Below, piece after piece: positions 3,670 through 22,286 of a stretch of DNA of 25,621 nt. The notes below the pieces were generated by a model that saw only the letters and a list, made by a program, of their open reading frames with translations, searched no databases and was not told the origin of the DNA. Source of the stretch: a virus. The DNA is taken from positions 1-25,621 of IMG/VR virus record IMGVR_UViG_3300046373_000142; one strand, written 5' to 3'. Position 1 is the stretch's first letter, and the number at the start of each line of letters is the position of its first letter. A program made the translations under genes and the position numbers.

Positions 3670-4173
3670 ATGAGCGACGCATCAGATATTGACGTCCTGT
3701 TTCCAGGGCGTGATGTGATGGCCAAGGGCGAGGCGGTCAAAGTTCTGCCCTTGTTCTTTGGTCAGTATCCGCAGGCGATCAAGCTATTGAAACCCGTGGC
3801 AACCGTGCTGAGCGAGTCGGGGATCATCCGACTTAGGCCCGAGGGCGTAACGGCGGATTTCAGCATTGCCGACGATTGGGCGCTCAAGCTGCCGGAAATC
3901 ATGATTGAAGGCGGCGAGGCACTGATCCAGTTCCTTGCCTTTGCGATAAACAAGCCGCGCAAGTGGTTTGATGCATTGCCGGCCGACGAAGGTCTGATGC
4001 TGGTAAAGGCCGTCTTTTCCGAGAACGCCGATTTTTTCGTAAAGCGGATTCGCCCTCTACTCGGGCAACTGGTCAAGGTGAATCCGCAAGCGCCGGCGCA
4101 GGATGGGGGGCCATCGCAGCCAGACTCGTCAGGTACGGCCACTCCTGGGACGCCATCCAACGTTACACCTTAG
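3670..4173 (+). CDS. Tail assembly chaperone, short (gpG-type) form
   Basis: The zero-frame product has 167 residues. Its N-terminal part (KVLPLFFGQYPQAIKLLKPV) and helical core (residues 70-135) are typical of tail assembly chaperones, which coat the tape measure protein before tube assembly. After residue 140 it becomes a low-complexity Pro/Ser/Gly tail. This is what one sees when the real extension lies in the -1 frame. The gene follows the tail tube directly, as in lambda-like tails, but the tape measure gene is not next. It begins more than 5 kb downstream. Confidence 0.8.
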   Translation: MSDASDIDVLFPGRDVMAKGEAVKVLPLFFGQYPQAIKLLKPVATVLSESGIIRLRPEGVTADFSIADDWALKLPEIMIEGGEALIQFLAFAINKPRKWFDALPADEGLMLVKAVFSENADFFVKRIRPLLGQLVKVNPQAPAQDGGPSQPDSSGTATPGTPSNVTP

Positions 4174-6684: not shown

Positions 6685-6923
6685 GCACGCTGCACATACT
6701 GAGCCCAGTGACGAAGCGAAAAGGCCGCGCACCCGGCAAGCAGCAGGATCAGGATCTGATCCTCACGGCAGCAGAGGCCCGCCTGATCCGCGCATATCGG
6801 AACACTGACGACGAGACCCAGGAGATGGCGGTCCGGACGGTGGAGAGATATGCACTGAATCCTGAGCTGATGCGTCACAAGGCGCCGGTGTTTCAGTTGG
6901 TCGCCGGCGGGAGGGGAGCATGA
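6681..6923 (+). CDS. Unknown small basic protein of the antirepressor operon
   Basis: The protein has 80 residues and overlaps both neighbours by four bases. The N-terminus is basic (TKRKGRAPGKQQ). A single helical region follows (LTAAEARLIRAYRNTDDETQ), which looks like a short helix-turn-helix or protein-binding segment but does not match a family I can name. Translational coupling to the antirepressor suggests a joint role in regulation. Confidence 0.65.
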   Translation: MSTLHILSPVTKRKGRAPGKQQDQDLILTAAEARLIRAYRNTDDETQEMAVRTVERYALNPELMRHKAPVFQLVAGGRGA

Positions 6924-7600
6924 ACACGCTGATCAATATCGTTAGCGATGCGCTTCGCATGACGAGCCGCGAAATCGCAGAGTTGACTAATAAGCGGCAT
7001 GACAATGTCGCACGCGTTTGTCGTGATCTCAAGGCAGACGGGGTGTGTCCTCAAATTGAGGAGACCCCCTATGTCCATGAAAAGAATGGGCAAACGTATC
7101 TGGAGTTTCAACTGAGCAAGCGTGATTCGCTGGTGCTGGTCGCGAGGCTTTCGCCAGAATTTACCGGGCGCGTGGTCGACCGCTGGATGGAACTGGAAGC
7201 GCAAAAAGCCGCACCGGTCATGCTTTCTCGGATGCAGTTGATCGAGATGGCCATGCAAGCCGAGAAGGAGCGGCTGGTGTTGGAGCAGAAAGTCGTCGCC
7301 GACGCGCCGAAGGTGGCGTTTCACGACGATGTGGCTGTGGCCATCAACGCGCAGCCGGTAGCTGAAGTGGCAAAAGTGCTGCACACCGGTCCGCGCCGCC
7401 TGTTTGCCTGGCTACGCGAGCAGGGTTTTCTTATGCGGGGCAACCTGCCGTATCAGCGGTACCTGGAGCAAGGCCTGTTCTCTGTAGTTGAAAAAACGCG
7501 AGAGGACACGAAAGGCGAAGTCAGGGTCTACACCCAGACGCTCGTTACTGGAAAAGGTCTTTCGACAATTCAGCGTCGATTTGCTCAACAAGGCGCATAA
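6920..7600 (+). CDS. Phage antirepressor (Rha domain plus KilAC/ANT domain)
   Basis: The protein has 226 residues. Residues 12-95 match the Rha phage regulatory family: TSREIAELTNKRHDNV, then YLEFQLSKRDSLVLVARLS and RVVDRWMELE. After a helical linker, residues 130-225 match the KilAC (ANT) C-terminal domain of phage antirepressors, including VAEVAKVLHTGPRRLFAWLR, FLMRGNLPYQRYL and VTGKGLSTIQ. Such proteins interfere with the prophage repressor or otherwise reset lysogeny genes. The gene lies in the operon that starts with the Arc-like repressor and the strong 6045-6073 promoter, the same logic as arc-ant in P22. Confidence 0.88.
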   Translation: MNTLINIVSDALRMTSREIAELTNKRHDNVARVCRDLKADGVCPQIEETPYVHEKNGQTYLEFQLSKRDSLVLVARLSPEFTGRVVDRWMELEAQKAAPVMLSRMQLIEMAMQAEKERLVLEQKVVADAPKVAFHDDVAVAINAQPVAEVAKVLHTGPRRLFAWLREQGFLMRGNLPYQRYLEQGLFSVVEKTREDTKGEVRVYTQTLVTGKGLSTIQRRFAQQGA

Positions 7601-7610
7601 GGAGACGGTC

Positions 7611-8180
7611 ATGGAAATCCTGAAACTGAAAATCGTAGGCACGAGTCCGCTGATGATGCACTCGGATCGCTTGGCAAATCCGCTGGCGCCCGAAACCCGA
7701 CTGCACAAGGAGTTGACCGGAAAGCGGAAGAAAACGGACGAGGACCACCTCGCGATAGCAAAGTCCGAGTTCATCGCTGGCGCATACTGGGATGCGAAGC
7801 TGGGCTTCTATATTCCTGGCGCCAATCTGGATGCGACGTTCTGGGCCGGCGCTAAGCTGCAAAAGTTGGGCGTCCATTGGAGGCGCGGCGCGCTTGTAAT
7901 GGAAGACAGGATCAAGCTGCAGCATGGCGGTCCGGACACACCTGAGGCGCTATGGGAGTCGCCGGCAAACGTCGATTGCCGCGGCGTTCGAGTCGGGCCG
8001 GCGAAGTTGATGCGCTATCGGCCGATCTTCACCAGCTGGTCGGCGGAGTTGTCCGTTGCCCTGAACAGCGACGTGCTCAATCCGAGCGAAGCGAAGAAGG
8101 CGATGGACGACGGCGGCAGCCTGATCGGCACCTGTGAATTTCGTCCGCGGTTCGGACGTTTCGAGGTGACCTATGAGTGA
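7611..8180 (+). CDS. Conserved phage protein of unknown function
   Basis: The protein has 189 residues from ATG 7611, preceded by AAGGAGA. The start region (KLKIVGTSPLMMHSDRLANP) and the block KRKKTDEDHLAIAKSEF are familiar from many phage genomes, where the family has no assigned function. Later come GFYIPGANLDATF and a C-terminal part, SWSAELSVALNSDVL then GGSLIGTCEFRPRFGRFEV. That alternation of strands and the closing glycine/arginine segment vaguely recall RAMP-fold RNA-binding proteins such as Cas7. This is only an impression and needs a structure comparison. Confidence 0.7.
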   Translation: MEILKLKIVGTSPLMMHSDRLANPLAPETRLHKELTGKRKKTDEDHLAIAKSEFIAGAYWDAKLGFYIPGANLDATFWAGAKLQKLGVHWRRGALVMEDRIKLQHGGPDTPEALWESPANVDCRGVRVGPAKLMRYRPIFTSWSAELSVALNSDVLNPSEAKKAMDDGGSLIGTCEFRPRFGRFEVTYE

Positions 8181-8646
8181 CATCGAATCCGATGACCTGC
8201 CACGCTTCCCTGTGTGGCGCCAGGCGGTCAAAGACTTTCTCCGGGAGTTTCGGTATGGCGATCTGGTCACGCATGACTGGCTTGCGTCGAACTTCAACAT
8301 GCCGACGCTCGACGCTGACTCGTCGCTGACCGCAATGGAGTTCAGGGAGCGGCAGTTCGAGTGGCTGGCAAACATTGAGGCGTTCAAGTCTGAATTGTTG
8401 CGAGACCATCAGGTCTGCCTGCAATCGGTTCGGGGCGAAGGCTTCCGCTGGGTGCCGCCTCACGAGCAGACGCGGGTGACGACTGAAGCGTTCCAGCGCG
8501 ACGCGAACCGCGCTTTTCGGAATGCCGGGCAGAGGTTGCGCAATATTCGCATTAGCGAATTGACGGACGATCAGCGGCGCGAGAATATTGATGCAGTCGC
8601 AAAATTAACTGCGATGAAGGGCATGCATCGCAGGGAATTGAAGTAG
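8173..8646 (+). CDS. Unknown phage protein, last gene of the antirepressor operon
   Basis: The protein has 157 residues and overlaps the upstream gene by eight bases. The N-terminal half has the pattern of a winged-helix protein: FRYGDLVTHDWLASNFNMP, then a helix and VRGEGFRWVPPHE, where the glycine turn could be the wing. The C-terminal half is a charged helix (FQRDANRAFRNAGQRLRNIR). No known family is recognised. DNA binding is plausible. It is followed at once by a 5-bp-periodic array and a terminator. Confidence 0.68.
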   Translation: MSDIESDDLPRFPVWRQAVKDFLREFRYGDLVTHDWLASNFNMPTLDADSSLTAMEFRERQFEWLANIEAFKSELLRDHQVCLQSVRGEGFRWVPPHEQTRVTTEAFQRDANRAFRNAGQRLRNIRISELTDDQRRENIDAVAKLTAMKGMHRRELK

Positions 8647-8881: not shown

Positions 8882-8907
8882 AAAAAGCTCCATTCGTGGA
8901 GCTTTTT
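8882..8907. terminator. Bidirectional intrinsic terminator
   Basis: AAAAAGCTCCA (8882-8892) and TGGAGCTTTTT (8897-8907) form a perfect stem with a TTCG tetraloop, flanked by A and T runs. It serves both the plus-strand operon ending at 8646 and the minus-strand gene ending at 8918. Confidence 0.93.
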
Positions 8908-8917
8908 CTATTTCTGC

Positions 8918-9469
8918 TCAAGGAATTTTGGCGATCTTTTCGAGCGTTGAAAGCTGGTTGTGGTGTATCAGGTGAACACCGTTGCTCTTTGCGAGAGCGT
9001 GCGCTGATTTCGTGTAGCCGTTCAGGCACACAACCGCGGCCACTTGGGCTCGGTAATGCGCTTTGCTGCCGATGACTTCCTGGACGGCGGCATTGCCGAC
9101 CCGGTTTTGGTACTTCTTGCATTGCACGACCAGCCGGAAGCCACGCAGTTCAGCGAGGATGTCGGCGCCCTGATCTTGAGGTGGCGTGACCCGAGCTTTC
9201 CAGCCAGCCTGGGTCAGCAGTTCGGCGCAGTAGTGCTCGTATTGGATCGGCGACAGTAAATCCACGTCGACAAAGCCGGGACGGAAGGCGTTTTCACGGG
9301 CTTCACGGGCTGATTGTTGTTCGCGCCCGGCCTTGATCATTGCCGGAACAAGGGCGCCCACAACAACTATTGCAACTATAGATCCCACCGGATCGACCGG
9401 AAAGAAGTGGATAGCCACATAGGCTATTAAGGAAAAAACGATAGCAATTCCGGCGTAGGTCGAGTTCAT
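8918..9469 (-). CDS. Membrane-anchored Mrr-like restriction endonuclease
   Basis: The protein has 183 residues from ATG 9469. An in-frame TTG at 9511 is an alternative start. Two membrane segments come first (about 7-23 and 28-44), then a charged linker and an Mrr-type nuclease domain. Catalytic residues are visible: Asp103 in QGADILAE and Gln116-x-Lys118 in VVQCKKY. The rest of the fold (SPIQYEHYCAELLTQAGW at the start, VVCLNGYTKSAHALA later) fits as well. Small membrane-tethered Mrr proteins are thought to cut foreign or modified DNA. Here it is probably prophage cargo against other phages. It is divergent from the tape measure gene. A perfect TTGACA lies upstream on its strand (9530-9525), without a clear -10 box. 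Confidence 0.82.
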   Translation of the reverse strand: MNSTYAGIAIVFSLIAYVAIHFFPVDPVGSIVAIVVVGALVPAMIKAGREQQSAREARENAFRPGFVDVDLLSPIQYEHYCAELLTQAGWKARVTPPQDQGADILAELRGFRLVVQCKKYQNRVGNAAVQEVIGSKAHYRAQVAAVVCLNGYTKSAHALAKSNGVHLIHHNQLSTLEKIAKIP

Positions 9470-9523
9470 ATTTTTGGCAACATTTTTCTCCCAAACGTAA
9501 CACAAAAACAACCAAGGTAAAAC

Positions 9524-12500
9524 ATGTCAAATATGAATGTATCCATGACGCTGTCGCTGGTCGATACGGCCAGCCCGCAAGTCAAGGCATTCATGGAGCA
9601 ACTCGCAGCCCTGGAAGGCGTCGTCGCGTCTGTCGGCAGCAAGATGGCTGGATTTGCTGCAGGCATGGAGTCGTTCGCTGCTTCGCTGGGCCTGGTGAAG
9701 GCAAGCGCCGCTGGCGTCAGCGCAGAAATCGGCGCCGTCGGCGCGAGTGCTGGAGCGGCCTCCGTCGAGACTGCGCGGCTTGAGTCAACGATTGCCGGAT
9801 TGAATGCAGCGCTGCAGAGTGTTCTCGGAAAGCTCGCCGGCGTCGCCGCAGGCATGGCGGATCTGGGTGCGGCATCGACTGCGGCGTCCGCTGGGGCGAG
9901 CGGTGCGATGAATGCGCTTGGTACTGGCGCACAGGCAGCAAACACGCACGTCAACACACTGGCCGACTCAATTCGGGGCATGGCTTTGCTTTGGACGGCG
10001 TTCGAGTTGAAAAAAGGCATGAAGTCGAGCATCCACGAGGCAAGCGACTTCCAGAAAGAAATGCTGACGATCGAAGGACTCAATCTCGGCGATGCGGCGA
10101 ACAAGGAAATTGCTGAAAAGGCCTGGAAAGACAGCCAAGGGTTGGGATTTGTCAGTCCGGTTGATGCTTTGCGCGCCAGGCAAGCGGCGATAGGCGGACT
10201 GGCCCAGCCGATGAATCAAGAGGTGCTTGATGCGACCGTCCCTGCTGCTCTGAAGCTAACAAACAATTTGCGATTTGCCGGCGATAAGACAGAGCTCGCT
10301 GACATGGTGCGAAATCTGTACGGCATCGCCGAAGCGCGCCAGCAGACAGAAGACCCCAAGGCAATGCTAGACACGTTTGATTTCGTGCAGAAGGCGTTTA
10401 CAGCCACTCAAGGAAAGGTGACGCCAAAAGACATCGAAATGTTTGTACGACAGTTGGGGCAGGGCGCGTCCAACATCTCGGACGACGGATTGATGCGCGC
10501 CGTTGCAGCGATCGATCAAATGAAGATTGCTGGCGGCGCTAATGGCGGAGGCGGTGGCGCGTCGAAATATGGCACCGCATACAAAATGCTTCAGGCCTAC
10601 GCGATGGGCAAGCCGATGAACAAGCAGGGAGCGGCGATTTTGATGGAGTCCGGCATTCTTGAGCCAGGGTCCATTGATGCGGATGGCAATACCACGCTCT
10701 CAGCAAATATAAAACCGGGCGGCGCAAAAGACCAGCAGCTTGCCTCGCAGGATATTAATGCTTGGATGGCAAAGAACGCCCCAAATATCATCGCCTACAC
10801 CCGCAAACACGCAAAAGAGTACTACCAGGGCGCCGACATGGACGACCCGAAGGCAATCGAAACCGCGGTACAGAAATATTTGACTGCGCTAGGCATTACC
10901 GTCACAGCACAGCAGGCTGCTAGCCTTCCGATCAATCCGCGCTCTCAGGCGCGCATGGAAGAGCAGCGCGACATGCAGATCAAATCGAAGGGTGTCAACG
11001 ATCAGTCTGAGCTGATCAAAGATTCCTACGCACAGTCTACAACCCGATTTAGCAAGGCTCTCGCAGCGCTTGGGCAGACCATCGGTGAGATCCTGATGCC
11101 AGTTTTGACGCCGCTGATTAACGGCCTTGCCTCTTTGCTGGAAAAGCTTGCAGGATTTTCGAACGACCACCCGGTTGTCGCTTTTGCGCTCACCTTGGGC
11201 GCAGCGTTTATTGGAATCTCAGCCGCCATCAAAGGCTTTGCGCTTGTATTCGGGCCGATCGCCGCTTTGCTGGGGCTTACGGCAGAATCGTTCGGAATTC
11301 TGGGCGTTGCGGTAATGGCAGCGCGAAACTGGTTCGGGTTATTAGTCGCAGGTATTGGAATCGGCGCCAGGGCTATTCTGGCATATATGGGGCCGCTTGG
11401 ATGGATCATCGCCGGCATCGTTCTTGTTTGGGAGGCAGGCCTCGGCGATTGGATCTCTAAGCTCAATGTGTTCGGTCATAGCGTAGGTGACTGGGCGTCG
11501 TCCATGGCCAATGATGTCGTCAATACCTTCCGCAACATGTGGGTGCGGACCAAGCAGTTTTTCGGCTACCTGTCAGAGGATGCGGCAAAGGCGCAGGTCG
11601 AGGCAAACAACACCGCCCGCAATGATAAGCAGAAGGCCCTCGGGTTCGGGAGTCAAGAATCGTCCGGCAAGATCAACTACGGCGGCGCGACCACTTCGCC
11701 AGCCGGAAAACCAAAAACCCGCGCAGAACAAATCCGCGAGCAACAACTCGCGGATGCTGAAAACGTAAAACTAGGGCCGCACGTCGATAAAAAGATGAAA
11801 GGCAGCGCCGGCGGCGGCGGCCGCTTCAAAAACTACGATCCCGACCTAGATGATGCCAAGAACGCGTTTCGCCTGGAGGAAGACGATCTGCGCAGGCATG
11901 GCGCTGCCGAGGACGAGCTCTACAAGGCCAACAAGATCTCGATCGCCGAATTTTACGACGATAAGCTCGCCACCACCCGCAAGGGCATCAACGCACAGAT
12001 CGCCGAGCTCGAGCGCGAGCAGGCCGCCTACCGCGCCCAGGGCGACAAGGCGGGCGTCAACCGCGTCGGCACGGACATCACGATCAAGAAGCGTGACCTA
12101 GCCGATGCCGAGAAGTCGGTCGAAGTGCAGCGCGAGAAGGATCTGAACGCGTTGAAGAAAGAGGGAATTGCGCTCGAAGCGCAGATGCTGGAAGCCGAGG
12201 GTAAGAAGAAGCAGTCGCATATGGCGCGCGAGATTGCCGATCTCGAAGAGAAAAAGAAAAAATTTCTCCTGAACCCCACGGCGCCAGATTCTGCAAAAAA
12301 TGCTGATCTCGCTCAGCAGGCCATCGACACGGCAAAGCTGACTGCCGCGATGGATGAGTACAAGACTGAACTCAAGCAGGTGCAGGACGCCGCAAAAACC
12401 GGAGAGGAACAAATCACCGATGCGGTGAAGTCGGGCGCGCTGTCTGAAGTTTTCGCCCAGGACAAGAAATTCGAACTGCGCAAGAAGGAAGCGGCGCAGC

Positions 12501-13258
12501 TGGATGAGCTGATCGCCAAATACCGCGAACTGATTCTGGCATCGGATGCGCCACAAGAGATCAAGGACATCCAGCTGCGCTCGCTGAAGCTGGAGCAGGC
12601 GAAGGCGAACACTATGGCGAACGAGTTGAGCCCGGACGATGCCAGGATGAAGCAAGGTCTAGACAGTAGCGTGGAAGGCGGCTTTGCAACGTTCTTTAAA
12701 GACATCATCACAGGATCGAAGTCGGCCAAAAATGCTTTTAAGGACTTTGCCAACAGCATCGCAGCGACGGTCAACGATCTCGTCGCCAAGAAGCTCGCGA
12801 AACAGCTATTCGAATCGATATTCGGGAAAGAGGGCGTTCCCATGTCAGCCGGGGGAACTGGAGGTAGCAGCGGTGGCGGCGGGGATGTGTTCGGCAGCAT
12901 CATGAAAATGTTCAGCATGAGCGGCGGATCGTCCGGAGGCTCAGCATCTGCCAACGCCGGAGCTTCCGGCTTTTCCGCAAGTCTTGATGCACTGAACGGC
13001 GCCGGCTCAGCCATCGTCGGCCTGGCAACTGGCACCGACCGCGTCCCGCAGGACATGCTCGCGATGATCCATCAGGGCGAAATGATCATTCCAGCCTATG
13101 ACGCAGAGAAAGTGCGCGCAGGCGGCGCCGGCGGTCAACGCCCAATGCAGGTCAATAACCACTTCACCGTATCCGGGCCTGTCACACGGGAAACACAGAT
13201 GCAGATTGGCCAACAGGCCGGCCTCGGCATCCAGCGCGCAGCCAGGAGAAACGGATGA
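9524..13258 (+). CDS. Tail tape measure protein
   Basis: The protein has 1244 residues, with AAGG before ATG 9524 (a second ATG is three codons on). It sets tail length and passes into the cell during DNA entry. The N-terminus is Ala/Ser/Gly-rich helix. A hydrophobic region at about 548-645, with several potential membrane spans, fits the DNA-entry role. Long charged coiled coils follow (about 760-1040). The C-terminus is Gly/Ser-rich and has the usual motif GTDRVPQDMLAMIHQGE. By the common rule of about 0.15 nm per residue the tail would be near 185 nm. It is separated from its chaperone by the accessory cassette, which is unusual. Confidence 0.95.
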   Translation: MSNMNVSMTLSLVDTASPQVKAFMEQLAALEGVVASVGSKMAGFAAGMESFAASLGLVKASAAGVSAEIGAVGASAGAASVETARLESTIAGLNAALQSVLGKLAGVAAGMADLGAASTAASAGASGAMNALGTGAQAANTHVNTLADSIRGMALLWTAFELKKGMKSSIHEASDFQKEMLTIEGLNLGDAANKEIAEKAWKDSQGLGFVSPVDALRARQAAIGGLAQPMNQEVLDATVPAALKLTNNLRFAGDKTELADMVRNLYGIAEARQQTEDPKAMLDTFDFVQKAFTATQGKVTPKDIEMFVRQLGQGASNISDDGLMRAVAAIDQMKIAGGANGGGGGASKYGTAYKMLQAYAMGKPMNKQGAAILMESGILEPGSIDADGNTTLSANIKPGGAKDQQLASQDINAWMAKNAPNIIAYTRKHAKEYYQGADMDDPKAIETAVQKYLTALGITVTAQQAASLPINPRSQARMEEQRDMQIKSKGVNDQSELIKDSYAQSTTRFSKALAALGQTIGEILMPVLTPLINGLASLLEKLAGFSNDHPVVAFALTLGAAFIGISAAIKGFALVFGPIAALLGLTAESFGILGVAVMAARNWFGLLVAGIGIGARAILAYMGPLGWIIAGIVLVWEAGLGDWISKLNVFGHSVGDWASSMANDVVNTFRNMWVRTKQFFGYLSEDAAKAQVEANNTARNDKQKALGFGSQESSGKINYGGATTSPAGKPKTRAEQIREQQLADAENVKLGPHVDKKMKGSAGGGGRFKNYDPDLDDAKNAFRLEEDDLRRHGAAEDELYKANKISIAEFYDDKLATTRKGINAQIAELEREQAAYRAQGDKAGVNRVGTDITIKKRDLADAEKSVEVQREKDLNALKKEGIALEAQMLEAEGKKKQSHMAREIADLEEKKKKFLLNPTAPDSAKNADLAQQAIDTAKLTAAMDEYKTELKQVQDAAKTGEEQITDAVKSGALSEVFAQDKKFELRKKEAAQLDELIAKYRELILASDAPQEIKDIQLRSLKLEQAKANTMANELSPDDARMKQGLDSSVEGGFATFFKDIITGSKSAKNAFKDFANSIAATVNDLVAKKLAKQLFESIFGKEGVPMSAGGTGGSSGGGGDVFGSIMKMFSMSGGSSGGSASANAGASGFSASLDALNGAGSAIVGLATGTDRVPQDMLAMIHQGEMIIPAYDAEKVRAGGAGGQRPMQVNNHFTVSGPVTRETQMQIGQQAGLGIQRAARRNG

Positions 13259-13914
13259 GCCCGTTTGCTGAGGTCAGGATCGACGACAACCTGATCATTT
13301 ACCACACGGTCGGCGGCCCGCTGTTCTCCACCGACATCGTGCCGGTTGACTCAGGCGATGAATACCGCAATGCGCGCTGGTCCCTGCCGCTTGGCCAATG
13401 GGAGCTCGGCGAGCGCTCCATGATGCCGGCCGACTTTGCGGTGATGAAGAGCTTCTTCAATGCGCGTAAGGGCCAGGCCCAGGGCTTCCGCTTCAAGGAC
13501 TGGGCAGATTACCGGGACGAAGGTGGCGGCATCATCGTCGAGGTTCCGGTGCCGCCCACGTCTACGCAATTCGAGCAGTTTTCCAGCGGCCCGGTGCTGC
13601 AGCTTTACAAGAGCTACACGTCAGGCGGCGAGACGAGCATGCGCAAGATTTCCAAGCCGGTCGCCGGCATCAAGATCTACAACGATGGGATGCTCGATAG
13701 CGGCGCGACCGTTGATCTCACATCCGGCATTGTTGTTCCGTCATCCAGTATCGGAACGCTCACATGGACGGGCGAATTCGATACGCCGGTGCGGTTCGCC
13801 GTCGATCAGCTGAAGACAGAGTTTATCGGCGTGACCGGTGCCGGCGGCGCAGCCAACGTGAAGGATGTCTACCTCCATCTGCTCAGCCTGCCGATTGTGG
13901 AGATCCGCCCGTGA
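13255..13914 (+). CDS. Distal tail protein, DUF2460 family
   Basis: The protein has 219 residues and overlaps the tape measure stop by ATGA. Features of the DUF2460 (TIGR02217) family are present: DEYRNARWSLPLGQWELGER near residues 35-55, FFNARKGQAQGFRFKDWADY, later LQLYKSYTSGGETSMRKISKPV, and the ending with TGEFDTPVRFAVDQL. In the Rhodobacter gene transfer agent the homologue forms the distal ring that joins the tube to the tail tip. The length is normal, and the next gene is the expected DUF2163 partner. Confidence 0.9.
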   Translation: MSPFAEVRIDDNLIIYHTVGGPLFSTDIVPVDSGDEYRNARWSLPLGQWELGERSMMPADFAVMKSFFNARKGQAQGFRFKDWADYRDEGGGIIVEVPVPPTSTQFEQFSSGPVLQLYKSYTSGGETSMRKISKPVAGIKIYNDGMLDSGATVDLTSGIVVPSSSIGTLTWTGEFDTPVRFAVDQLKTEFIGVTGAGGAANVKDVYLHLLSLPIVEIRP

Positions 13915-13919
13915 AGTTG

Positions 13920-14771
13920 ATGAGCCCGGAATTAAAAGCCCATTACACGAGCAAGCTGACGACTCTGGCGACCTGCTGGAAAGCGACGCTCACCAACGGT
14001 AGAGTGGTTGCGGCGACGGGCTTTGACCAGAACATCCTGTTTGACGGCGCATATTTTCTGTCGACCGCCGGCTATATTGGCTCGGACATCCAAAGCTCGG
14101 CTGAGCTCAATCCGGACAATCTGGAGGTAGATGGCTTCCTGCGCTCTCCTGCCATTACGGAGGAGGACATCCATTCCGGGCTATGGGACTACGCGGCTAT
14201 CGAGATATTTGAGGTCAATTACGAAGACCTCACGATGGGAAAGAACGTTCTCCGCGCCGGAACGCTCGGCGAGGTCAAAGGCGGGCGCCACAAGTTCACC
14301 GCCGAGCTGCGCGGGCTGATGCAGGCCTACAGCCGCACGATCGTCCGGCTTATGACGCAGGATTGCAATGCGGACCTGGGAGACGCACGCTGCAAGGTCG
14401 ACCTGTCGGCATGGACCGTTACTGGCACGGTCACGAGCGTATCGGACAACCGCGTGATCGGCGATACGTCCCGTCACGAGGACATCAACTGGTTCACCGG
14501 CGGAAAGCTAACTTTTACGAGCGGGCTGAACGCAGGCCTGAGCATGGAAGTGAAATCCTTCATTAGCACGATTGACCTGCAAGAACGCATGCCGTTCCAG
14601 ATTGTCGAGGGCGACACTTACAGCATGTATGCCGGCTGCTCCAGGCGCGCGCTTCTCGACTGCAGAATAAAGTTCGACAATTACATCAATTTCCGCGGCT
14701 TCCCCGATTTGCCGCAGTCGAAGATTTACCGGCGCGGCAGCGAAGGCGTCGGCACAGGAACAACCCCATGA
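13920..14771 (+). CDS. Tail-tip protein, DUF2163 / phage BR0599 family, probable Fe-S hub
   Basis: The protein has 283 residues from ATG 13920. A GTG at 13911 overlaps the upstream stop and is an alternative start. The DUF2163 part is followed by a BR0599-type C-terminus ending NYINFRGFPDLP. Four cysteines are placed as in the family: Cys149 and Cys158 (CNADLGDARC) and Cys240 and Cys248 (CSRRALLDC). Related tail-tip hubs, lambda gpL and the gene transfer agent hub, bind an iron-sulfur cluster with such cysteines, so cluster binding is expected here. It forms the base of the tail tip beneath the NlpC/P60 peptidase and megatron-type protein. Confidence 0.9.
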   Translation: MSPELKAHYTSKLTTLATCWKATLTNGRVVAATGFDQNILFDGAYFLSTAGYIGSDIQSSAELNPDNLEVDGFLRSPAITEEDIHSGLWDYAAIEIFEVNYEDLTMGKNVLRAGTLGEVKGGRHKFTAELRGLMQAYSRTIVRLMTQDCNADLGDARCKVDLSAWTVTGTVTSVSDNRVIGDTSRHEDINWFTGGKLTFTSGLNAGLSMEVKSFISTIDLQERMPFQIVEGDTYSMYAGCSRRALLDCRIKFDNYINFRGFPDLPQSKIYRRGSEGVGTGTTP

Positions 14772-15196
14772 AGCCAGAGCAGATTGCCGCCATCGCCCGG
14801 GAGACTTTGGATACGCCCTGGCAGCATCAGCAGCGCATCGCTGGGCTCGCCATGGACTGCGCCGGCCTGCCGATCTTCATTGGCAAGCGCCTTGGCATGC
14901 CCGTCGACTCACTGGCGAACTATGGCCGCCTGCCGGTCCCGGCCGAGATGCGCACCGAGCTGGACCGGAGCCTGGTCCGCGTCTCGAAGTCAGACATGCA
15001 GGTCGGCGACGTCGCATGGATTCGCTTCGAGGTCGAACCGCAGCATTTCGGCATCATCGGCGACTACCGGTATGGCGGCTTTTCCCTGATCCACGCCTAT
15101 AACGGTGCGGGCGTGAACCGGGTGGTCGAGCATCGGCTTGACTCCGAATGGATGGGCCGGATTGTCGGCGTCTGGCGATTTCCTGGAGTCGAATAG
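14768..15196 (+). CDS. NlpC/P60-family tail peptidoglycan peptidase
   Basis: The protein has 142 residues and overlaps the preceding stop (ATGA). It matches the phage NlpC family (TIGR02219), with Cys31 in MDCAGL as nucleophile, His93 in PQHFGII and His109 in LIHAYNG completing the likely catalytic set. In tails it opens the peptide cross-links of the cell wall during DNA entry. It is therefore a virion enzyme and not the lysis endolysin, which is not seen in this window. Confidence 0.92.
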   Translation: MKPEQIAAIARETLDTPWQHQQRIAGLAMDCAGLPIFIGKRLGMPVDSLANYGRLPVPAEMRTELDRSLVRVSKSDMQVGDVAWIRFEVEPQHFGIIGDYRYGGFSLIHAYNGAGVNRVVEHRLDSEWMGRIVGVWRFPGVE

Positions 15197-17839
15197 ATGA
15201 GCGGTCAACTTATTGGCGGCGTGCTCGGTGCGGCCATCGGCTTTTTTATCGGCGGGCCGCAAGGCGCGCTGTACGGCTATTCGTTGGGAAGCATCGCCGG
15301 CGGAATCATTGCGCCCGGATCAGTTGACGGCCCGCGCCTGTCGGACCTCAAGCCACAGGCATCCGAGTACGGCCGACCGATCCCGATCGTCTATGGCACG
15401 ACAGCAATGGGCGGCAATGTCATCTGGGCCTCAGACCTCGTTGAAGAGAAGGGCGATGGCGGCGGCAAGGGCGGCGGCCCGTCGGTAACCACCTTCACCT
15501 ATTACGCAAACTTCGCTGTGGCGTTCTGCGAGGGTGAAACGACGTTCGGGCGTGTATGGGCCGGCCCGGAAAAGCGCCTGATCTGGGACGGCACGACCCT
15601 GGAGGGCGGCGGCTCGGTGCGGTTCTACAGCGGCAGCGAAGATCAGTTGCCCGACCCACTGATCGAGTCTTACCTTGGCGTCGGCAACGTGCCAGCCTAT
15701 CGTGGCACGGCCTACATCGTTTTCGAGCGATTCCCGGTCATCAAGGATGGCAATGCCATCCCGTTCATCACCGCTGAGGTTGGCGCGAAGGCCGGCGGCC
15801 ACGGCCAGACGCCGCTGCTTGTTGGCCCCACATTGGCAACGCCGAATTTTCAGCCTGCACGGGCGATTGTCGACCCGACTACCGGCTGGATCTGGAATGT
15901 TCTTGACGATGGCATCCAGCCTGCGCACAGCTATAGCGTCACGGTGATCAACGACGCCACGCAGGAGGTGATTGCAAACTTTCCCGGCCGGCCGCTGGCA
16001 ATTCACGGTGGCTTCATTATGAGCGTGACGACGTTCGGCGGCCTGGTCTACGTGGTGAGCCGCCAGTTCGCATCTCCGGCCGACGAGGCGGGTAACAATG
16101 ACACCGTCTCGAACCTCGCTTTTGTCGATGTGTTCTATTCGGGCAGCGCGAACCCGGACGGGTCGGTCAATACGATGCCTGCATTCTCCACTTCTGCCGT
16201 TTGGGGGCACCTGGGGCGGGTGCGGCCTATTTTTTATCACCTGGTGGGGGCGGATGTCGTTGCCACCCCGGAAAATATACGGCTGACCGACCCGTATGGC
16301 GGCGGCGGGGCGCCACTAGGAGTGCTTGCGGACGGCACGCGCGTAGAAAATCTTCTAACCGCCGAGATGCCCATCTATCCCACTGCAGCCGGTACGGACG
16401 GCACCCGGCTATGGATTGCCTATTCCGATAGCAACAACGGCCCGACAACTGTCGCGGTGTATTCGGACTATCGAAACTTTGCCGAGACCGGAACCGGGCA
16501 AGCGGGCGTCGCCGGGTATATCGGCAACGCCTACCAAATCCTGGGCGACATGTCCTATATGGGCATTGCTGGGAGTCTTGGCCCGACGAACCAAAATTTC
16601 TCCGTTTTTGACTCGAGCGTGGTTTCCGCGAGCAATCCGCCCGTGCCGCTGTATTCGATTGCGGTGCCCTCCGCGCTCGCGGGGAAGGCGTTCGACTACG
16701 ATCCGAAACGCAAAGTCTTCATGTCGTACCTGCCGAACTCGATGGACTGGGTATCGATCGATGCGGCAAGTGGCGTACTGACGACGCATACGCTGACGGT
16801 CGGGCCGGGCGACACCTCGCCGGCGCCGTCTGGCATTGTCACGGCCATCACGTATTCCAAGAAGACAGACCGCTACCTGCTCGGGGCGAGCAGCAACGGT
16901 GGGGATACCGGCACTACCATCTATGTCGTGAACCCCGATACCTTTGCGGTCGAAGGCACCTACACATTTGAGGCCGGCGGCCAACTGATCAATCCGTTGC
17001 TCGATCCGGTGACGACCCAAGCCGGGCCGCCCTATGTCCTTTCCTTCGACCAGCACACCGTCAAGCGCCTCTATCTGGGCGGGGCTGCTGTTGCGGCGCC
17101 AATGAACCTCGGCGACATTGTGGCGGATTTGTCTGCGCGAGCCGGCCTGGCTTCGGGCCAGATCGATGTGGGCGCACTGACAGACATGGTCGACGGGTAC
17201 GCGATCGCGCGCCAGACGACCGTGCGCAATGCAATCGACGCGTTGCGTTCGGCCTATTACTTCGACGCAGTAGAGTCCAGTGGCAAAGTGAAATACGTCA
17301 AGCGCGGCGGCCAATCAGCCGCCGTCATCGATGAATCTGATCTGGATGCACGTCAATACGGCAGTCAGCCGGGCGATCCATTGCTGGCGACGCGGCAGAT
17401 GGAAGTCGAGCTTCCGCGCATCCTGAATGTGAACTATATGCTGGCAGCCACCGACTACTCGGCGGCTACCAAAGTATCAAAGCGACTGGTTGGCTCAAGC
17501 GGGCAAGAATCCACGCTCGATTTGTCCCTCGTCCTGTCCGACACCAAGGCGCAGGAAGTGGCCGATGTAAATCTGCACACGGCATGGGTTCAAAGGCTTC
17601 AGTACGGGCCGTTTTCGTTGCCGCGCAAGTACGCGTTTCTGGAGCCGACCGACATTGTCACGATCAAGGGCTACGCCATGATGCTCACCAAGGTGACGGC
17701 GACGCCCGGCGGGTTGCTGACGTGCGAGGCGGTGGCGCAGGATGCAAATACCTTCATCCCGCACGTCGTCGTCACCGAGACGCCTCCGGCTGGCAAGACA
17801 GTGTTTGTGCCGGGTGCCACGACTTTGGAGCTGATGTGA
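15197..17839 (+). CDS. Tail-tip hub (megatron/gpJ-type), N-terminal part, with inserted propeller-like domain
   Basis: The protein has 880 residues. It begins with the Gly-rich hydrophobic segment usual for these proteins (SGQLIGGVLGAAIGFFIGG), then GPRLSDLKPQASEYGRPIPI, VYGTTAMGGNVIWA and YYANFAVAFCEGE. At about residues 205-620 the family pattern is interrupted by repeated short strands that read like a beta-propeller (for example NPDTFAVEGTYTFEAGG). It resumes at GDIVADLSARAGL with hub domains through residue 860. It ends with LELM just where related proteins continue into LxDxDNxxGFY, which here opens the next gene. The propeller could bind host surface sugars. Confidence 0.9.
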   Translation: MSGQLIGGVLGAAIGFFIGGPQGALYGYSLGSIAGGIIAPGSVDGPRLSDLKPQASEYGRPIPIVYGTTAMGGNVIWASDLVEEKGDGGGKGGGPSVTTFTYYANFAVAFCEGETTFGRVWAGPEKRLIWDGTTLEGGGSVRFYSGSEDQLPDPLIESYLGVGNVPAYRGTAYIVFERFPVIKDGNAIPFITAEVGAKAGGHGQTPLLVGPTLATPNFQPARAIVDPTTGWIWNVLDDGIQPAHSYSVTVINDATQEVIANFPGRPLAIHGGFIMSVTTFGGLVYVVSRQFASPADEAGNNDTVSNLAFVDVFYSGSANPDGSVNTMPAFSTSAVWGHLGRVRPIFYHLVGADVVATPENIRLTDPYGGGGAPLGVLADGTRVENLLTAEMPIYPTAAGTDGTRLWIAYSDSNNGPTTVAVYSDYRNFAETGTGQAGVAGYIGNAYQILGDMSYMGIAGSLGPTNQNFSVFDSSVVSASNPPVPLYSIAVPSALAGKAFDYDPKRKVFMSYLPNSMDWVSIDAASGVLTTHTLTVGPGDTSPAPSGIVTAITYSKKTDRYLLGASSNGGDTGTTIYVVNPDTFAVEGTYTFEAGGQLINPLLDPVTTQAGPPYVLSFDQHTVKRLYLGGAAVAAPMNLGDIVADLSARAGLASGQIDVGALTDMVDGYAIARQTTVRNAIDALRSAYYFDAVESSGKVKYVKRGGQSAAVIDESDLDARQYGSQPGDPLLATRQMEVELPRILNVNYMLAATDYSAATKVSKRLVGSSGQESTLDLSLVLSDTKAQEVADVNLHTAWVQRLQYGPFSLPRKYAFLEPTDIVTIKGYAMMLTKVTATPGGLLTCEAVAQDANTFIPHVVVTETPPAGKTVFVPGATTLELM

Positions 17840-20193
17840 ATATCAACATGCTGCGGGACCAGGACAACGATCCCGGCTTCTATGTGGCTGCCAGCAGCAC
17901 TGACCCTAAGTGGCCGGGCGCAGTCCTATTTAGCTCCAGCGACAGCGGCGCAAGCTATCAGCAGATCGCCACCCTTACTGCCGCGGCGACAATGGGGCGC
18001 CTGGTCGGGACGTTGGGTGACTTCGCCGGCGGCAATATCCCGGATGAGCTGAACGCGATCACGGTGCGCCTGTCCCGTGGATCTCTTTCGTCCATCTCTT
18101 ACGCGTCATTTCTGGCCGGCGCGCAGACGGCGCTGATCGGCGACGAAATCGTCTACTTTCGCAATGCGGCGCTCAACGTCGACGGCACGTACACGGTCTC
18201 CGGTTTCCTGCGCGGGCAGCGTGGCAGCGAATATGCAATCAGTCGGCATGGGCCGCTTGAGCGCTTCATCCTGCTGAATACGGCGACAGTACAGCGCATT
18301 CCCGGCGTGACGGCAGACCTGCATGTGCCGCGGCTGTATAAGGCGGTCACGGTCGGCTCGACGCTGGCGAAGGCGACTGCGCAGAGCTTTACCAATGATG
18401 GCGCCGGGCTGAAGCCCTATGCGCCAGTCCATGTCGGCGGCGGCCGCAATGCTGCGGGAGATGTGCTGATCAACTGGACGCGGCGCGGCAGGATCTCGGG
18501 GGAGTGGCGTAATTTCGCCGACGTCCCTTTGGGCGAAGACAGCGAGCAATACAACGTCGAAATCTGGGATGCAGCTTATGCGACGCTCAAGCGAACGCTT
18601 GGCGCTGTGTCGAGCCCGACGGCGACCTATGCCGCTGCAGACGAAACCGCCGATTTCGGCAGCCCGCAATCAGCCCTCTATCTGAAGGTCTACCAGCTAT
18701 CCAGCATCGTCGGCCGCGGCTATCCTGCCTTAGCTGTCGTGGCGCTGGACGGCACGGTCGCATCCGACACGGGTAGCGCGGGGGCCGGTGGCTCCGGCGG
18801 TGGTGGCAGTACGGGTGGCGGTAGTACAGGCGGCACCGGCGGCACTGGAAGCACCGGTGGTACGGGCGGAACCGGGGGAACGGTCACAGGAACAACCGTA
18901 TCCTATGTCGAAAGCACCGTCGATTTTCCTAACCCCGAGCGCGGTTTTGCGCGCCAGGTGGGCAACTGTCAGAACATCCAGTTCAATTCCAGCAGCGTCG
19001 CGTCCGTACGCACCGGCAGTGCCGCGATCACCGTGCATTGGATGCTGGTGTATCTCAACAGCTTCATTTCCTCTGCCATCAGCAGCACGGTCTTGTCGAA
19101 CATCCAGACCAACTTCGACAACTTGCGCGCCGGCGGCGCCAAAGCGTGGTTGCGCTTCGAGTATGACCAGACCAACGTCGGCAACGACGCCAACAAGACG
19201 CAGATGAAGGCGCACATCGATCAGTTGCGTACCCTGCTGCAAAATAACGCAGACGTGATCGTGGCGATGGATGCTGGCTTCATTGGAAGCTATGGCGAGT
19301 GGTCGCAGTCAGGTAATTACGGCTTTGAAGGGTCCTTCACCACGCAGAACTGGGCGGATCGTAAGGAAGTGCTGGAATACTTGCTCGATGCTCTGCCGTC
19401 GAACAGGATGATCATGCTGCGCGTGCCGGGCTACAAACAGCACTTCTACGGCACCACGGCGCTGAATCCCACTACTGCCTTTACGGGCACCTATGCGGCG
19501 CGACTTGGGCATCATAACGATGCTTTCCTGTCAGGGGCGGACGATCAGGGTACCTACGGCCTGACACAGACCGTTGCATTCGATCGGGCGTTCGTCGCAG
19601 AGGAGTCGAAGTACACCCCTCACGCCGGCGAAAGCGATAACTACAGCACCAGCAACCTGGCCAAGACGGCCTGTCCTGCAGCGCTCTCCGATCTGGCCTA
19701 CCACCATTGGTCGTTCATCAATGACGGCTTTGAGGCGAACGTACTTCAGCAGTGGAAGGACGGCGGCTGCTACAGCAGCATCAGCAAAAAGCTTGGCTAC
19801 CGCTTTGTGCTGGTAGAAGGCACCTATCCTGCGACAGGCGCCCGCGGCGCCACGATAGCGCTCTCGATGACCATCAACAATGTTGGCTTCGCATCGCCGT
19901 TCAATCAGCGGCACGCAAAGCTTGTCCTGCGCAACACGTCCACCAGTGCGGAAACGGCAATCACGCTATCAGCCGATCCGCGGACTTGGCTGCCGGGGGC
20001 GCAGACGGTTACCGAAACGGTCACGCTGCCATCGGGCATGGCGGCCGGGTCCTATGCGCTTTTCCTCGCGCTGCCCGACATGGCGAGCTCACTCGCCGCC
20101 AATCCGGCCTATGCGATCCAGTTTGCCAATGTCGGGGTCTGGGAGTCGACCACCGGCTACAACGACCTGAGCCACACGATCGTAATTTCTTAA
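17836..20193 (+). CDS. Tail hub C-terminal part fused to a DUF4874/DUF4832 glycosidase-like module
   Basis: The protein has 785 residues from GTG 17836 (overlapping the upstream TGA). ATG 17848 is the alternative. Residues 1-310 continue the hub (RDQDNDPGFYVAAS, WPGAVLFSSSDSGASYQ). A Gly/Ser/Thr linker spans about 313-355. From 366 (NPERGF) the sequence follows DUF4874, with RFEYDQT, AGFIGSYGEW (Glu488) and LRVPGYK, then DUF4832, with RLGHHNDAFLSG (556-567), DDQGTYG, LGYRF (653) and a final beta domain ending FANVGVWESTTGYNDL. These domains have a TIM-barrel, glycosidase-like character but no proven substrate. I infer a tail-tip enzyme or receptor binder acting on surface polysaccharide. Confidence 0.85.
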   Translation: MNINMLRDQDNDPGFYVAASSTDPKWPGAVLFSSSDSGASYQQIATLTAAATMGRLVGTLGDFAGGNIPDELNAITVRLSRGSLSSISYASFLAGAQTALIGDEIVYFRNAALNVDGTYTVSGFLRGQRGSEYAISRHGPLERFILLNTATVQRIPGVTADLHVPRLYKAVTVGSTLAKATAQSFTNDGAGLKPYAPVHVGGGRNAAGDVLINWTRRGRISGEWRNFADVPLGEDSEQYNVEIWDAAYATLKRTLGAVSSPTATYAAADETADFGSPQSALYLKVYQLSSIVGRGYPALAVVALDGTVASDTGSAGAGGSGGGGSTGGGSTGGTGGTGSTGGTGGTGGTVTGTTVSYVESTVDFPNPERGFARQVGNCQNIQFNSSSVASVRTGSAAITVHWMLVYLNSFISSAISSTVLSNIQTNFDNLRAGGAKAWLRFEYDQTNVGNDANKTQMKAHIDQLRTLLQNNADVIVAMDAGFIGSYGEWSQSGNYGFEGSFTTQNWADRKEVLEYLLDALPSNRMIMLRVPGYKQHFYGTTALNPTTAFTGTYAARLGHHNDAFLSGADDQGTYGLTQTVAFDRAFVAEESKYTPHAGESDNYSTSNLAKTACPAALSDLAYHHWSFINDGFEANVLQQWKDGGCYSSISKKLGYRFVLVEGTYPATGARGATIALSMTINNVGFASPFNQRHAKLVLRNTSTSAETAITLSADPRTWLPGAQTVTETVTLPSGMAAGSYALFLALPDMASSLAANPAYAIQFANVGVWESTTGYNDLSHTIVIS
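18772..18894 (+). repeat. Gly/Ser/Thr-coding low-complexity linker
   Basis: Short GGT/GGC-rich repeats coding for GGTG and GGST-type units join the hub part to the DUF4874/DUF4832 module. The run marks the domain fusion point. Confidence 0.75.
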
Positions 20194-20229
20194 CCGCCTA
20201 GCAATCACTGCACTTATTCGCCACGAAGG

Positions 20230-20250
20230 CCGCCCCCGGGCGGTTTTTTT
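20230..20250 (+). terminator. Intrinsic terminator after the hub genes
   Basis: CCGCC (20230-20234) pairs with GGCGG (20239-20243) around CCCG and is followed by seven T (20244-20250). It lies between the hub-enzyme gene and the fibre gene, so fibre expression probably depends on read-through or a separate start. Confidence 0.85.
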
Positions 20251-20261
20251 ATGGGACGCCC

Positions 20262-22286
20262 ATGAGCAACAGCACAACGAATCTCGATCTGATCAGCACC
20301 AGCCAGGCAAGCAAGGAAGTGACGGCCAATGCCGCGTTCGACGCAGCGAGTCCGGCCATGTTGTACGGCCGGCGCGCGGTCACGACTGCCGGATGGACGT
20401 GGGGGTATTACGGCGGGACCGTGCTGGTGGCCGGCGTACCCACGCAGATCGCCAATGGCGTTTTGACGCTCACGGCGTCGGCGACGAATTACATTGAGGC
20501 CGATCCTGCGACCGGTGCGGTGTCGGTCAATACCTCCGGCTTCACGACTGGGCGTATGCAGCTGTATTCCGTCGTCACCGGCAGCGCCACGGTCACCAGC
20601 TATACCGATCTGCGCACGGTGGGCGGCGGTGGGGCGGGTGTCACTGACGGCGACAAGGGCGACATCACTGTTGCCGGGGATAGCTGGACCATCGACAGCA
20701 ATGTCATCAGCACATTCGGACGAACCCTGATAGATGATGCTGACGCCGCAGCGGCGCGAGCCACGCTTGGACTCGGCACGGCTGCAGTCCTGGTATCCGA
20801 TACTGACACCTCGCTTGCTGCGAACAGCGATACCCGCGTTGCCACGCAAAAGGCGGTCAAGGCTTATATCGACTCGGTCGCCACATCCGGCGCCACCGAT
20901 GTGATGATCTTCAGGGGCGTGATCGACTGCTCTGCCAACGCGAACTACCCGGCGGCCGACGCCGGTAATCTGTACAAGGTGAGCGTCGCCGGCAAGATCG
21001 GTGGCGCATCGGGTCCGAATGTGGAGGCGGGCGACACGCTGTACTGCATCGCGGATGCAACCGCATCGGGCACGCATGCGTCAGTGGGCGCGAGCTGGGT
21101 CATCGCGCAGGTCAATGTCGACGGCGCCGTGGTTGGACCTGCATCGGCGACCGGCGATCATGTCGCACTATTCAGCGGCAGTACCGGCAAGCTCATCAAG
21201 GACAGCGGCCTGACGCTGTCGGGCACGAATACCGGCGACCAAACCCTGAATGGCCTGCTGCCGACGCAGACCGGAAATTCCGGGAAATTTCTGGCCACCG
21301 ATGGATCGAATGCCTCATGGGCGACAGCATCCGGTGGCGGCACGTCGACAGCCGATTCCCAGACGTTCACGTCAAGCGGAACGTGGGCCAAGCCTGCCGG
21401 CGTGACGTTCGTGGAAATTATTTGCTTTGCCGGTGGTGGTGGCGGCGGTGGCGGCGTTGGCGCTGCTGCCGGGGCAGTCCGTAACGGTGGCACTGGTGGT
21501 GGCGGTGGCGCGTATAGCCGGCTGGTTGTGAGGGCGTCGGATCTGGGCTCTACGGTCTCGGTCACGGTGGGCGCCGGCGGCACCGCAGGGGCTGGCGGAT
21601 CGAGCGGTACCGGCACGGCGGGCGGCGCCGGCGGCAATTCCTCCTTCGGCACCACCCTGTCGGCCTTCGGCGGCGGCGGCGGCGCTGCCCCATCGTCGGG
21701 GAGCGGCAGCAACTTTACCGGCGGTAGTGGCGGCGGCACGGGTAGCGCCGGCATCGTTGGCGCGGCCAGCGGAACCGGTGCGGTTGGTGGCGGCCCCACT
21801 ACGGTCAATACCGCGCCAGGCATTGGCGGGGGCGGCGCGAGCGCTCCCAACACGGGCGTCGGACTGACTGCTGAATATGGCGGCGCGTCCGGTGGCGGCA
21901 CTGTCGGGACGAGCAATGCCGGAAAAGGCGGTACGTCAATCTATGGCGGCAGCGGCGGTGGTGGCGGCGGTGGCCTGTATTCCGATAACTCGACCAACCT
22001 GCAGTCGAACGATGGCGGCGCCACTGGCACCTGGGTGCTGCTGGGCGGCGGTGGCGGCGCAAAAGGAACTGGCACGGCGGGCGCAGCCGGGACCGCTGGC
22101 GCGAACGGCACAGTGGCAGGCGGCTCGGGTGGTGGTGGCGGCGCTACAAACTCAGCCGGCACTGGTGGCGCAGGCGGCGCTGGCGGCACTTCTGGCGGTG
22201 GTGGTGGCGGTGGCGGCGGCGGCACCACTACAGGCGGGGCAGGCGGTGCCGGCGGGCGCGGCGAAGTCCGCATCCTTTCATGGTGA
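20262..22286 (+). CDS. Tail fibre with large polyglycine adhesin domain
   Basis: The protein has 674 residues. The N-terminus (TTNLDLISTSQASKEVTANA) is common in fibres that attach to this tail type. The shaft carries known fibre repeats: ARATLGLGTAAVLVSDTDTS, ATQKAVKAYIDS, GDHVALFSGSTGKLIKDSGL. From about 367 (TFTSSGTWAKPAGVTFVEII) the sequence becomes a Gly-rich domain of about 290 residues, ending GGRGEVRILSW. Such domains form polyglycine-II helix sandwiches in phage adhesins such as that of S16, with the loops reading the receptor. It is therefore the likely host-range determinant. A GGGA ribosome site precedes the ATG. Confidence 0.88.
   Translation: MSNSTTNLDLISTSQASKEVTANAAFDAASPAMLYGRRAVTTAGWTWGYYGGTVLVAGVPTQIANGVLTLTASATNYIEADPATGAVSVNTSGFTTGRMQLYSVVTGSATVTSYTDLRTVGGGGAGVTDGDKGDITVAGDSWTIDSNVISTFGRTLIDDADAAAARATLGLGTAAVLVSDTDTSLAANSDTRVATQKAVKAYIDSVATSGATDVMIFRGVIDCSANANYPAADAGNLYKVSVAGKIGGASGPNVEAGDTLYCIADATASGTHASVGASWVIAQVNVDGAVVGPASATGDHVALFSGSTGKLIKDSGLTLSGTNTGDQTLNGLLPTQTGNSGKFLATDGSNASWATASGGGTSTADSQTFTSSGTWAKPAGVTFVEIICFAGGGGGGGGVGAAAGAVRNGGTGGGGGAYSRLVVRASDLGSTVSVTVGAGGTAGAGGSSGTGTAGGAGGNSSFGTTLSAFGGGGGAAPSSGSGSNFTGGSGGGTGSAGIVGAASGTGAVGGGPTTVNTAPGIGGGGASAPNTGVGLTAEYGGASGGGTVGTSNAGKGGTSIYGGSGGGGGGGLYSDNSTNLQSNDGGATGTWVLLGGGGGAKGTGTAGAAGTAGANGTVAGGSGGGGGATNSAGTGGAGGAGGTSGGGGGGGGGGTTTGGAGGAGGRGEVRILSW

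Follow-up and report, generated by a model that had tools for sequence, protein, structure and literature searches.

A predicted TIM-barrel glycosidase module fused to the separately encoded fibre-binding domain of a phage megatron

The window analysed here is a linear viral contig of 25,621 bases of metagenomic origin (IMG/VR record IMGVR_UViG_3300046373_000142), whose plus strand bears a siphophage tail block; the baseplate, megatron, module and fibre features described below lie on this strand. Within the block, the gene at 17836-20193 encodes a protein of 785 amino acids, in which the fibre-binding domain of the megatron, a baseplate protein of the gene transfer agent (GTA) type, is joined by a linker to a DUF4874/DUF4832 module. 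We assign a probability of about two in three to the reading that this gene is a split-off megatron fibre-binding domain bearing a retaining glycosidase, which is displayed at the tail tip and opens host exopolysaccharide.

The fusion is real and intact. The gene starts with GTG and encodes, in this order, PF23666 (Rcc01698_C), the linker, DUF4874 and DUF4832. A Pfam scan yielded E-values of 1.9e-20 for PF23666, 2.1e-35 for PF16173 (DUF4874; 122.1 bits at a cut-off of 30.1, profile positions 1-157 of 159) and 4.7e-63 for PF16116 (DUF4832; 213.3 bits at a cut-off of 29.2, profile positions 1-216 of 216), all three well beyond their curated thresholds. An initial annotation of the window had recognized the DUF4874-DUF4832 pattern by its motifs; the domain search agrees with this assignment, and all quoted motifs are present. 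The glycine linker that it described is likewise found in the translation, as a Gly/Ser/Thr-rich stretch of 44 residues (gene residues 312-355; 18769-18900). The reading frame stays open from the hub part into the module, which is flanked on both sides by sequence typical of its clade. It is followed by a terminator-like hairpin with a run of T (20228-20251) and by a tail-fibre gene (20262-22286; phrog_863, 7.8e-12), as is usual after the megatron in the split clade described below. Both elements are of the same kind as in the related contigs L002 and L003, where a similar hairpin and flank precede the fibre gene, and the N-terminus of the fibre protein is similar in the relatives' downstream genes. 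The open frame and the downstream region shared with L002 and L003 make an assembly chimera unlikely. The G+C content of the module is 0.588, compared to 0.594 for the rest of the phage.

The N-terminal 303 residues of the protein (17836-18744) correspond to the megatron fibre-binding domain. The initial annotation had taken this part for the second half of a gpJ/megatron-type hub; the relation to megatrons holds, but it is specifically the fibre-binding domain, encoded by a gene of its own, and not a generic gpJ half. About 300 residues match positions 1010-1300 of the RcGTA megatron (6TBA; 2.4e-20) and positions 1162-1438 of the megatron of phage R4C (8GTC; 4.3e-18). In the RcGTA structure, megatron residues 985-1304 form the fibre-binding domain (PMC7296036), and in R4C this domain is located at the bottom of the baseplate (PMC10276861). 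The first part of the window megatron (880 amino acids) is encoded by the preceding gene at 15197-17839, as indicated by PF13550 (3e-28) and the alignment with the RcGTA megatron. Its layout comprises iris and adhesin-like domains (residues 1-200), a variable peripheral region (about 202-622) and a central domain (623-880). Residues 6-201 and 623-859 align with RcGTA residues 13-207 and 753-982, which belong to the N-terminal and central domains, respectively. Both ends are conserved among relatives, whereas the middle is poorly conserved even in close ones. For the peripheral TIM domain of RcGTA (230-744), no counterpart was detected by sequence in this gene, whose residues 202-622 differ. 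The stretch at this site (15800-17062) has no family, the best match being DUF4978 with an E-value of 0.04; it may be a further host-recognition module. Both genes match phrog_4271, with E-values of 6.5e-108 for the first and 3.6e-74 for the second. The homology to GTA-type megatrons spans the N-terminal, central and fibre-binding domains and is distributed over two genes instead of a single polypeptide. Judging from these alignments, the megatron is divided where the central domain meets the fibre-binding domain, a point absent from the initial annotation, and is a variant, split form of the same GTA-type protein.

The junction of the two genes shows how the split is organized. A GGAG at 17827-17830, within the end of the first gene, is the likely ribosome-binding site of the second, and the GTG start of the second gene overlaps the TGA stop of the first by four bases (GTGA, 17836-17839). 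In 13 related contigs of a first scan, the border between the central and fibre-binding parts is also a gene border, with a conserved GGAGCT before the second start, which is either ATG or GTG. The relatives contain GTGA, ATGA, TAATG or TAA/TAG-ATG at this point and thus display three frame relations: a GTGA/ATGA overlap, TAATG, and a stop followed directly by ATG. These three relations and the conserved GGAG speak against a sequencing error and against a shared programmed frameshift, and a frameshift reading of the two genes was rejected on these grounds. A longer, mechanically predicted open reading frame (ORF) from 17584 was also rejected as a gene, because the conserved starts and the GGAG place the start at 17836; this GTG is taken as the correct start on the basis of the comparison. 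A coupling of the two genes by termination-reinitiation is suggested. Among 80 surveyed hub loci, several of them contigs already present in the first scan, classification by script gave 30 split, 45 single and 5 unresolved cases; four of the 30 (L082, L084, L085 and L115) lack the typical junction and are uncertain. Because the close relative L079 has similar junction letters (GGAGCTG at 3950-4030) and no stop codon, its megatron being fused as a single chain, the split and fused states seem to interconvert easily. In nine annotated phage or plasmid records whose fibre-binding domain was inspected, the megatron is one coding sequence that ends about 12 residues or less from the match. The comparison of loci identifies the split as a conserved property of one phage clade and not as an error.

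The fold of the C-terminal module was predicted by means of AlphaFold2 from alignment A3, which contains 17 phage and bacterial sequences. The resulting model (m78f6a5321dac) has a pLDDT of 90.9 and a pTM of 0.90 and replaces an earlier one deduced from six sequences (pLDDT 68.5), whose Foldseek list was set aside. In the model, the module consists of a (beta/alpha)8 barrel (18901-19794) and a C-terminal beta-sandwich of seven strands (19804-20190), which resembles a carbohydrate-binding module. The barrel strands comprise module residues 15-22, 45-51, 81-87, 120-124, 171-173, 202-206, 241-244 and 272-274. DUF4874 (module residues 11-176) contributes beta1-beta5; DUF4832 (about 201-410) contributes beta6-beta8 with its first part and most of the beta domain with its second. 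Because the predicted barrel runs across the Pfam border, DUF4874 and DUF4832 are, according to the model, not two structural domains. Glycosidases top the list of Foldseek matches in the PDB, with a best E-value of 6e-7 for an endo-beta-mannanase and probabilities of up to 1.0; further matches include a GH5 endoglucanase, a GH35 beta-galactosidase and beta-amylase. The glycosidase-like fold proposed in the initial annotation was thus recovered by prediction.

In glycoside hydrolase clan A (GH-A) enzymes, the acid/base residue follows beta4 and the nucleophile is located at beta7. The model has a corresponding layout, namely a (beta/alpha)8 barrel with a Glu after beta4 and a Glu ending beta7. 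Glu488 (module Glu133; motif GSYGEW; codon 19297-19299) lies in the beta4 loop and is the candidate acid/base; Glu599 (module Glu244; motif HAGES; codon 19630-19632) lies at the end of beta7 and is the candidate nucleophile. Both are invariant in 17 of 17 sequences. Also invariant are Asp562 (module Asp207; motif HND; codon 19519-19521) and, in module numbering, Arg154, Arg174, Asn206, Asn274 and Trp285. Glu488 and Asp562 had previously been named as catalytic candidates. The first choice is in line with the model, whereas Asp562 ends beta6; since Glu599 occupies the nucleophile site of clan GH-A, it is probably the partner of Glu488. Asp562 probably serves substrate binding or plays a supporting role.

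Further support for a glycosidase activity comes from the literature. SIR_1591 from Streptococcus intermedius, a DUF4832 protein with a TIM barrel and a beta domain, was expressed and disperses Pel-dependent aggregates like the PelA hydrolase (PMC12345266). DUF4832 genes adjoin Pel clusters in streptococci and clostridia (PMC7112168) and also occur within a capsule locus of Klebsiella (PMC6258164). Together with the GH-A-like acid layout, these observations argue for catalysis by the window module. SIR_1591 shares with it the named domain and the succession of a TIM barrel and a seven-stranded beta domain; in contrast, SIR_1591 is free-standing, membrane-anchored, linked to a pel operon and not part of a virion, and the two are likened by description and not by sequence. 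The idea of a novel depolymerase or receptor binder on a tail-tip protein, as initially put forward, is compatible with the fusion to the fibre-binding domain, but glycosidase activity of a bacterial DUF4832 protein had already been published. The open-access literature naming DUF4832 or DUF4874 contained no paper on phages. Pel was weighed as a substrate and not adopted, its basis being one relative.

The proposed function can be described as follows. If the protein is arranged as in RcGTA and phage R4C, the three-fold baseplate would bear three copies of it at the bottom, which is the site of tail-fibre attachment, and each would carry the retaining glycoside hydrolase via the flexible linker. 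The beta-sandwich would hold the polysaccharide chain, and the barrel would hydrolyse capsule or matrix polysaccharide of the host, with Glu488 as acid/base and Glu599 as nucleophile. This hydrolysis would let the tail tip reach the outer membrane. We infer catalysis from the acid layout and from SIR_1591; the retaining mechanism and the role in adsorption are presumed. Several points weigh against this function. The geometry of the acids was taken from secondary structure rather than from coordinate distances, structural agreement with solved glycosidases is modest, the TM-scores of the matches listed reaching no more than 0.38 by query length, and no chain in the PDB matches the module by sequence. 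Furthermore, the published activity is that of SIR_1591, a relative likened by description, and was judged by the dispersal of aggregates and not by products. Finally, the exact fusion is known from one contig.

It is conceivable, if rather improbable, that the module acts in receptor binding only, with barrel and beta-sandwich attaching to a glycan on the surface but not cleaving it, and with selection acting on adsorption. The family activity published so far is, as far as we found, bacterial, none stemming from a phage member, which would be in keeping with such a role. However, both candidate Glu residues are kept, as are Arg440, His460, Arg529, Asn561, Asp562, Asp570, Asn629 and Trp640, and a pure binder would not need to retain all of these conserved residues. 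Moreover, one phage contig combines the module with further hydrolases: a single ORF of L036 (600-4502), flanked by a tail-type gene and an endolysin, encodes DUF4874 and a DUF4832 that is interrupted by a GDSL hydrolase, along with another GDSL-like stretch and GH16. From its domains, this ORF appears to encode a multi-enzyme polysaccharide tool.

In the initial annotation, the two domains had been described as known from free-standing, often secreted proteins of bacteria or fungi and not from phage tail tips; the family is otherwise encountered in secreted proteins of bacteria. DUF4832 indeed has no match in 50,697 phage records and no PHROG family, but alignment-based scans retrieved about 20 viral contigs in which the module is part of large proteins of virion type or of secreted type, and BFVD lists one DUF4832 phage protein, A0A8S5R645 (Ackermannviridae sp. 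ctaCq7). The latter is the best viral structural match (E-value 6.7e-17, TM-score 0.63 by query); it differs from the window module in its length of 731 residues and is 14% identical. In L024, the module is joined to an F5/8-type-C-like part within a protein of 1,770 residues, which is encoded amid virion genes; the phage also has a gene for an internal virion protein. L025-L035 and L039-L043, which derive from low-G+C, Flavobacterium-like phages, encode mostly secreted-type proteins, several of them with type IX sorting tails; the infected cell might export those of L025-L035 and L039-L042, which would then not be virion components. In L031, the module gene is flanked by tail-type genes and lysis genes, and genes for endolysin, GroEL and terminase are close by. 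The proteins of L037 and L038 (1,051 residues) have additional C-terminal parts and no sorting tail. The DUF4874-DUF4832 proteins of Bacteroidota and Flavobacterium-like phages (L019-L022, L025-L035, L039-L043) share the module and the invariant Glu pair with the window at about 30-42% identity; unlike the window protein, many stand alone and have what looks like a signal peptide together with a type IX sorting tail. A search for the same fusion in other phages, as the initial annotation had suggested, gave no second case in the phage records (tblastn, 50,697) or in viral contigs (single-sequence scan). Similarly, the DUF module is absent from the 80 surveyed hub loci, and the megatron/hub part is absent from the fetched DUF loci L019-L043.

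Relatives carry other modules at this position. Most fibre-binding genes of the split clade terminate directly after the core (...GRGYPA.A.I), the exceptions with a C-terminal module being the window, L003 and L056/L057. L003, which is the same contig as L055, encodes at 8907-10010 a module of 368 residues (SSIWNMPIGSGAVY...) with no Pfam family and a weak match to the minor tail protein phrog_17388. L056 (4001-6004) and L057, contigs from two samples that are identical over the stretch compared, encode a module of 366 residues with DUF1565 (7e-8) and a sub-threshold beta-helix match. Extensions without a Pfam match, about 300-340 residues long, are also present in two single-chain hubs, L090 and L092. 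Because these extensions differ, the end of the fibre-binding domain is, on this comparison, a point that accepts different modules. In the single-chain megatron of L112 (3917-5460), a domain that appears LamG-type-like by eye seems to be inserted within the fibre-binding domain. The few and related contigs are suggestive of a link between megatron splitting and the gain of modules. A broader proposal, which we regard as tentative and as somewhat short of even odds, is that the split fibre-binding gene is a tail-tip socket whose C-terminal modules are swapped within the clade to match the host polysaccharide, and that DUF4874/DUF4832 is an undescribed class of phage depolymerases used independently by several lineages.

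Alternatively, the module could be tolerated bacterial cargo that was recently appended and is of no use to the phage. This is quite unlikely. The occurrence of the exact fusion in one contig would fit, as would the nearest kin, which are Bacteroidota proteins with 38-42% identity and phage proteins with 38-39%. However, the module looks maintained: it is at most 42% identical to its nearest kin, has a full frame, the invariant residues and a phage-like G+C content, and different modules occupy this position in two other loci. Its identity to the A3 relatives is 32-42%; in a tree, the window stands at an open fork to which L024 and L036 are attached by long branches, so that its placement is not fixed. 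That a chimeric assembly or a frame error produced the fusion or the split, as the metagenomic linear contig and a megatron read in two frames might suggest, is hardly credible given a split that recurs in 13 relatives from the first scan and in further ones from the second, three frame relations with a conserved GGAG, and clade-typical sequence on both sides of the module.

Among characterized systems, the megatrons of RcGTA (Rcc01698; PDB 6TBA/6TEH) and R4C (8GTC) are the same baseplate protein as that of the window, with N-terminal, central and fibre-binding domains that align, and the order of the DUF2460, hub, peptidase and megatron genes is the same. In contrast to the window, both are single chains that end at the fibre-binding domain, which here is a separate gene product with a C-terminal enzyme-like module. 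RcGTA TspA is a baseplate-associated tailspike that degrades biofilm and aids delivery (PMC13420450, preprint). It resembles the proposed window enzyme as a baseplate-associated enzyme on a GTA-type tail; it differs in being a separate, detachable, trimeric beta-helix spike with neither a megatron fusion nor a TIM barrel.

The upstream genes of the block begin with the distal-tail gene (DUF2460; 13255-13914; PF09343, 2.4e-35; phrog_2913), the first in the GTA-type baseplate block. The baseplate hub protein is encoded by a mechanically predicted ORF at 13764-14771 (PF09931, 3.3e-53; PF09356, 2.5e-21; phrog_778); because homology begins only at residue 54, the real start is probably further inside, near 13911-13923. 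The closest hub matches occur in phages and plasmids from several groups, among which Alphaproteobacteria predominate; Alteromonas, Microcystis and Paraburkholderia are also represented. The gene at 14768-15196 occupies the position of the RcGTA g14 peptidase and is a putative cell-wall peptidase gene, with weak matches to the minor tail protein phrog_329 (1e-8) and to NLPC_P60 (just 0.09). The stretch 6920-8646, flanked by the tail assembly chaperone and tape measure genes, codes for an anti-repressor (phrog_63, 4e-57) and for two proteins without an assigned function (phrog_4652, phrog_5926). A protein of Pseudomonas phage Medea1 shares 71% identity over 82% with the product of 7488-8180. 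The region looks like a cassette inserted into the tail block.

Phage tail depolymerases are known mostly as beta-helical spikes. The parts of the window gene are of known kinds; what is new is the way they are combined, a split clade whose modules are exchangeable, and the catalytic pair proposed here. If true, a TIM-barrel glycosidase on a GTA-type fibre-binding domain would widen both the kinds of enzymes found on tails and their points of attachment. Based on the model, Glu488 and Glu599 would provide a concrete catalytic pair for a family that is still named "unknown function". The swapped modules represent a natural set for asking how host recognition changes. As the sole family activity found in the literature targets a Pel-type biofilm matrix, a relative on a virion would be a lead for matrix-degrading enzymes.
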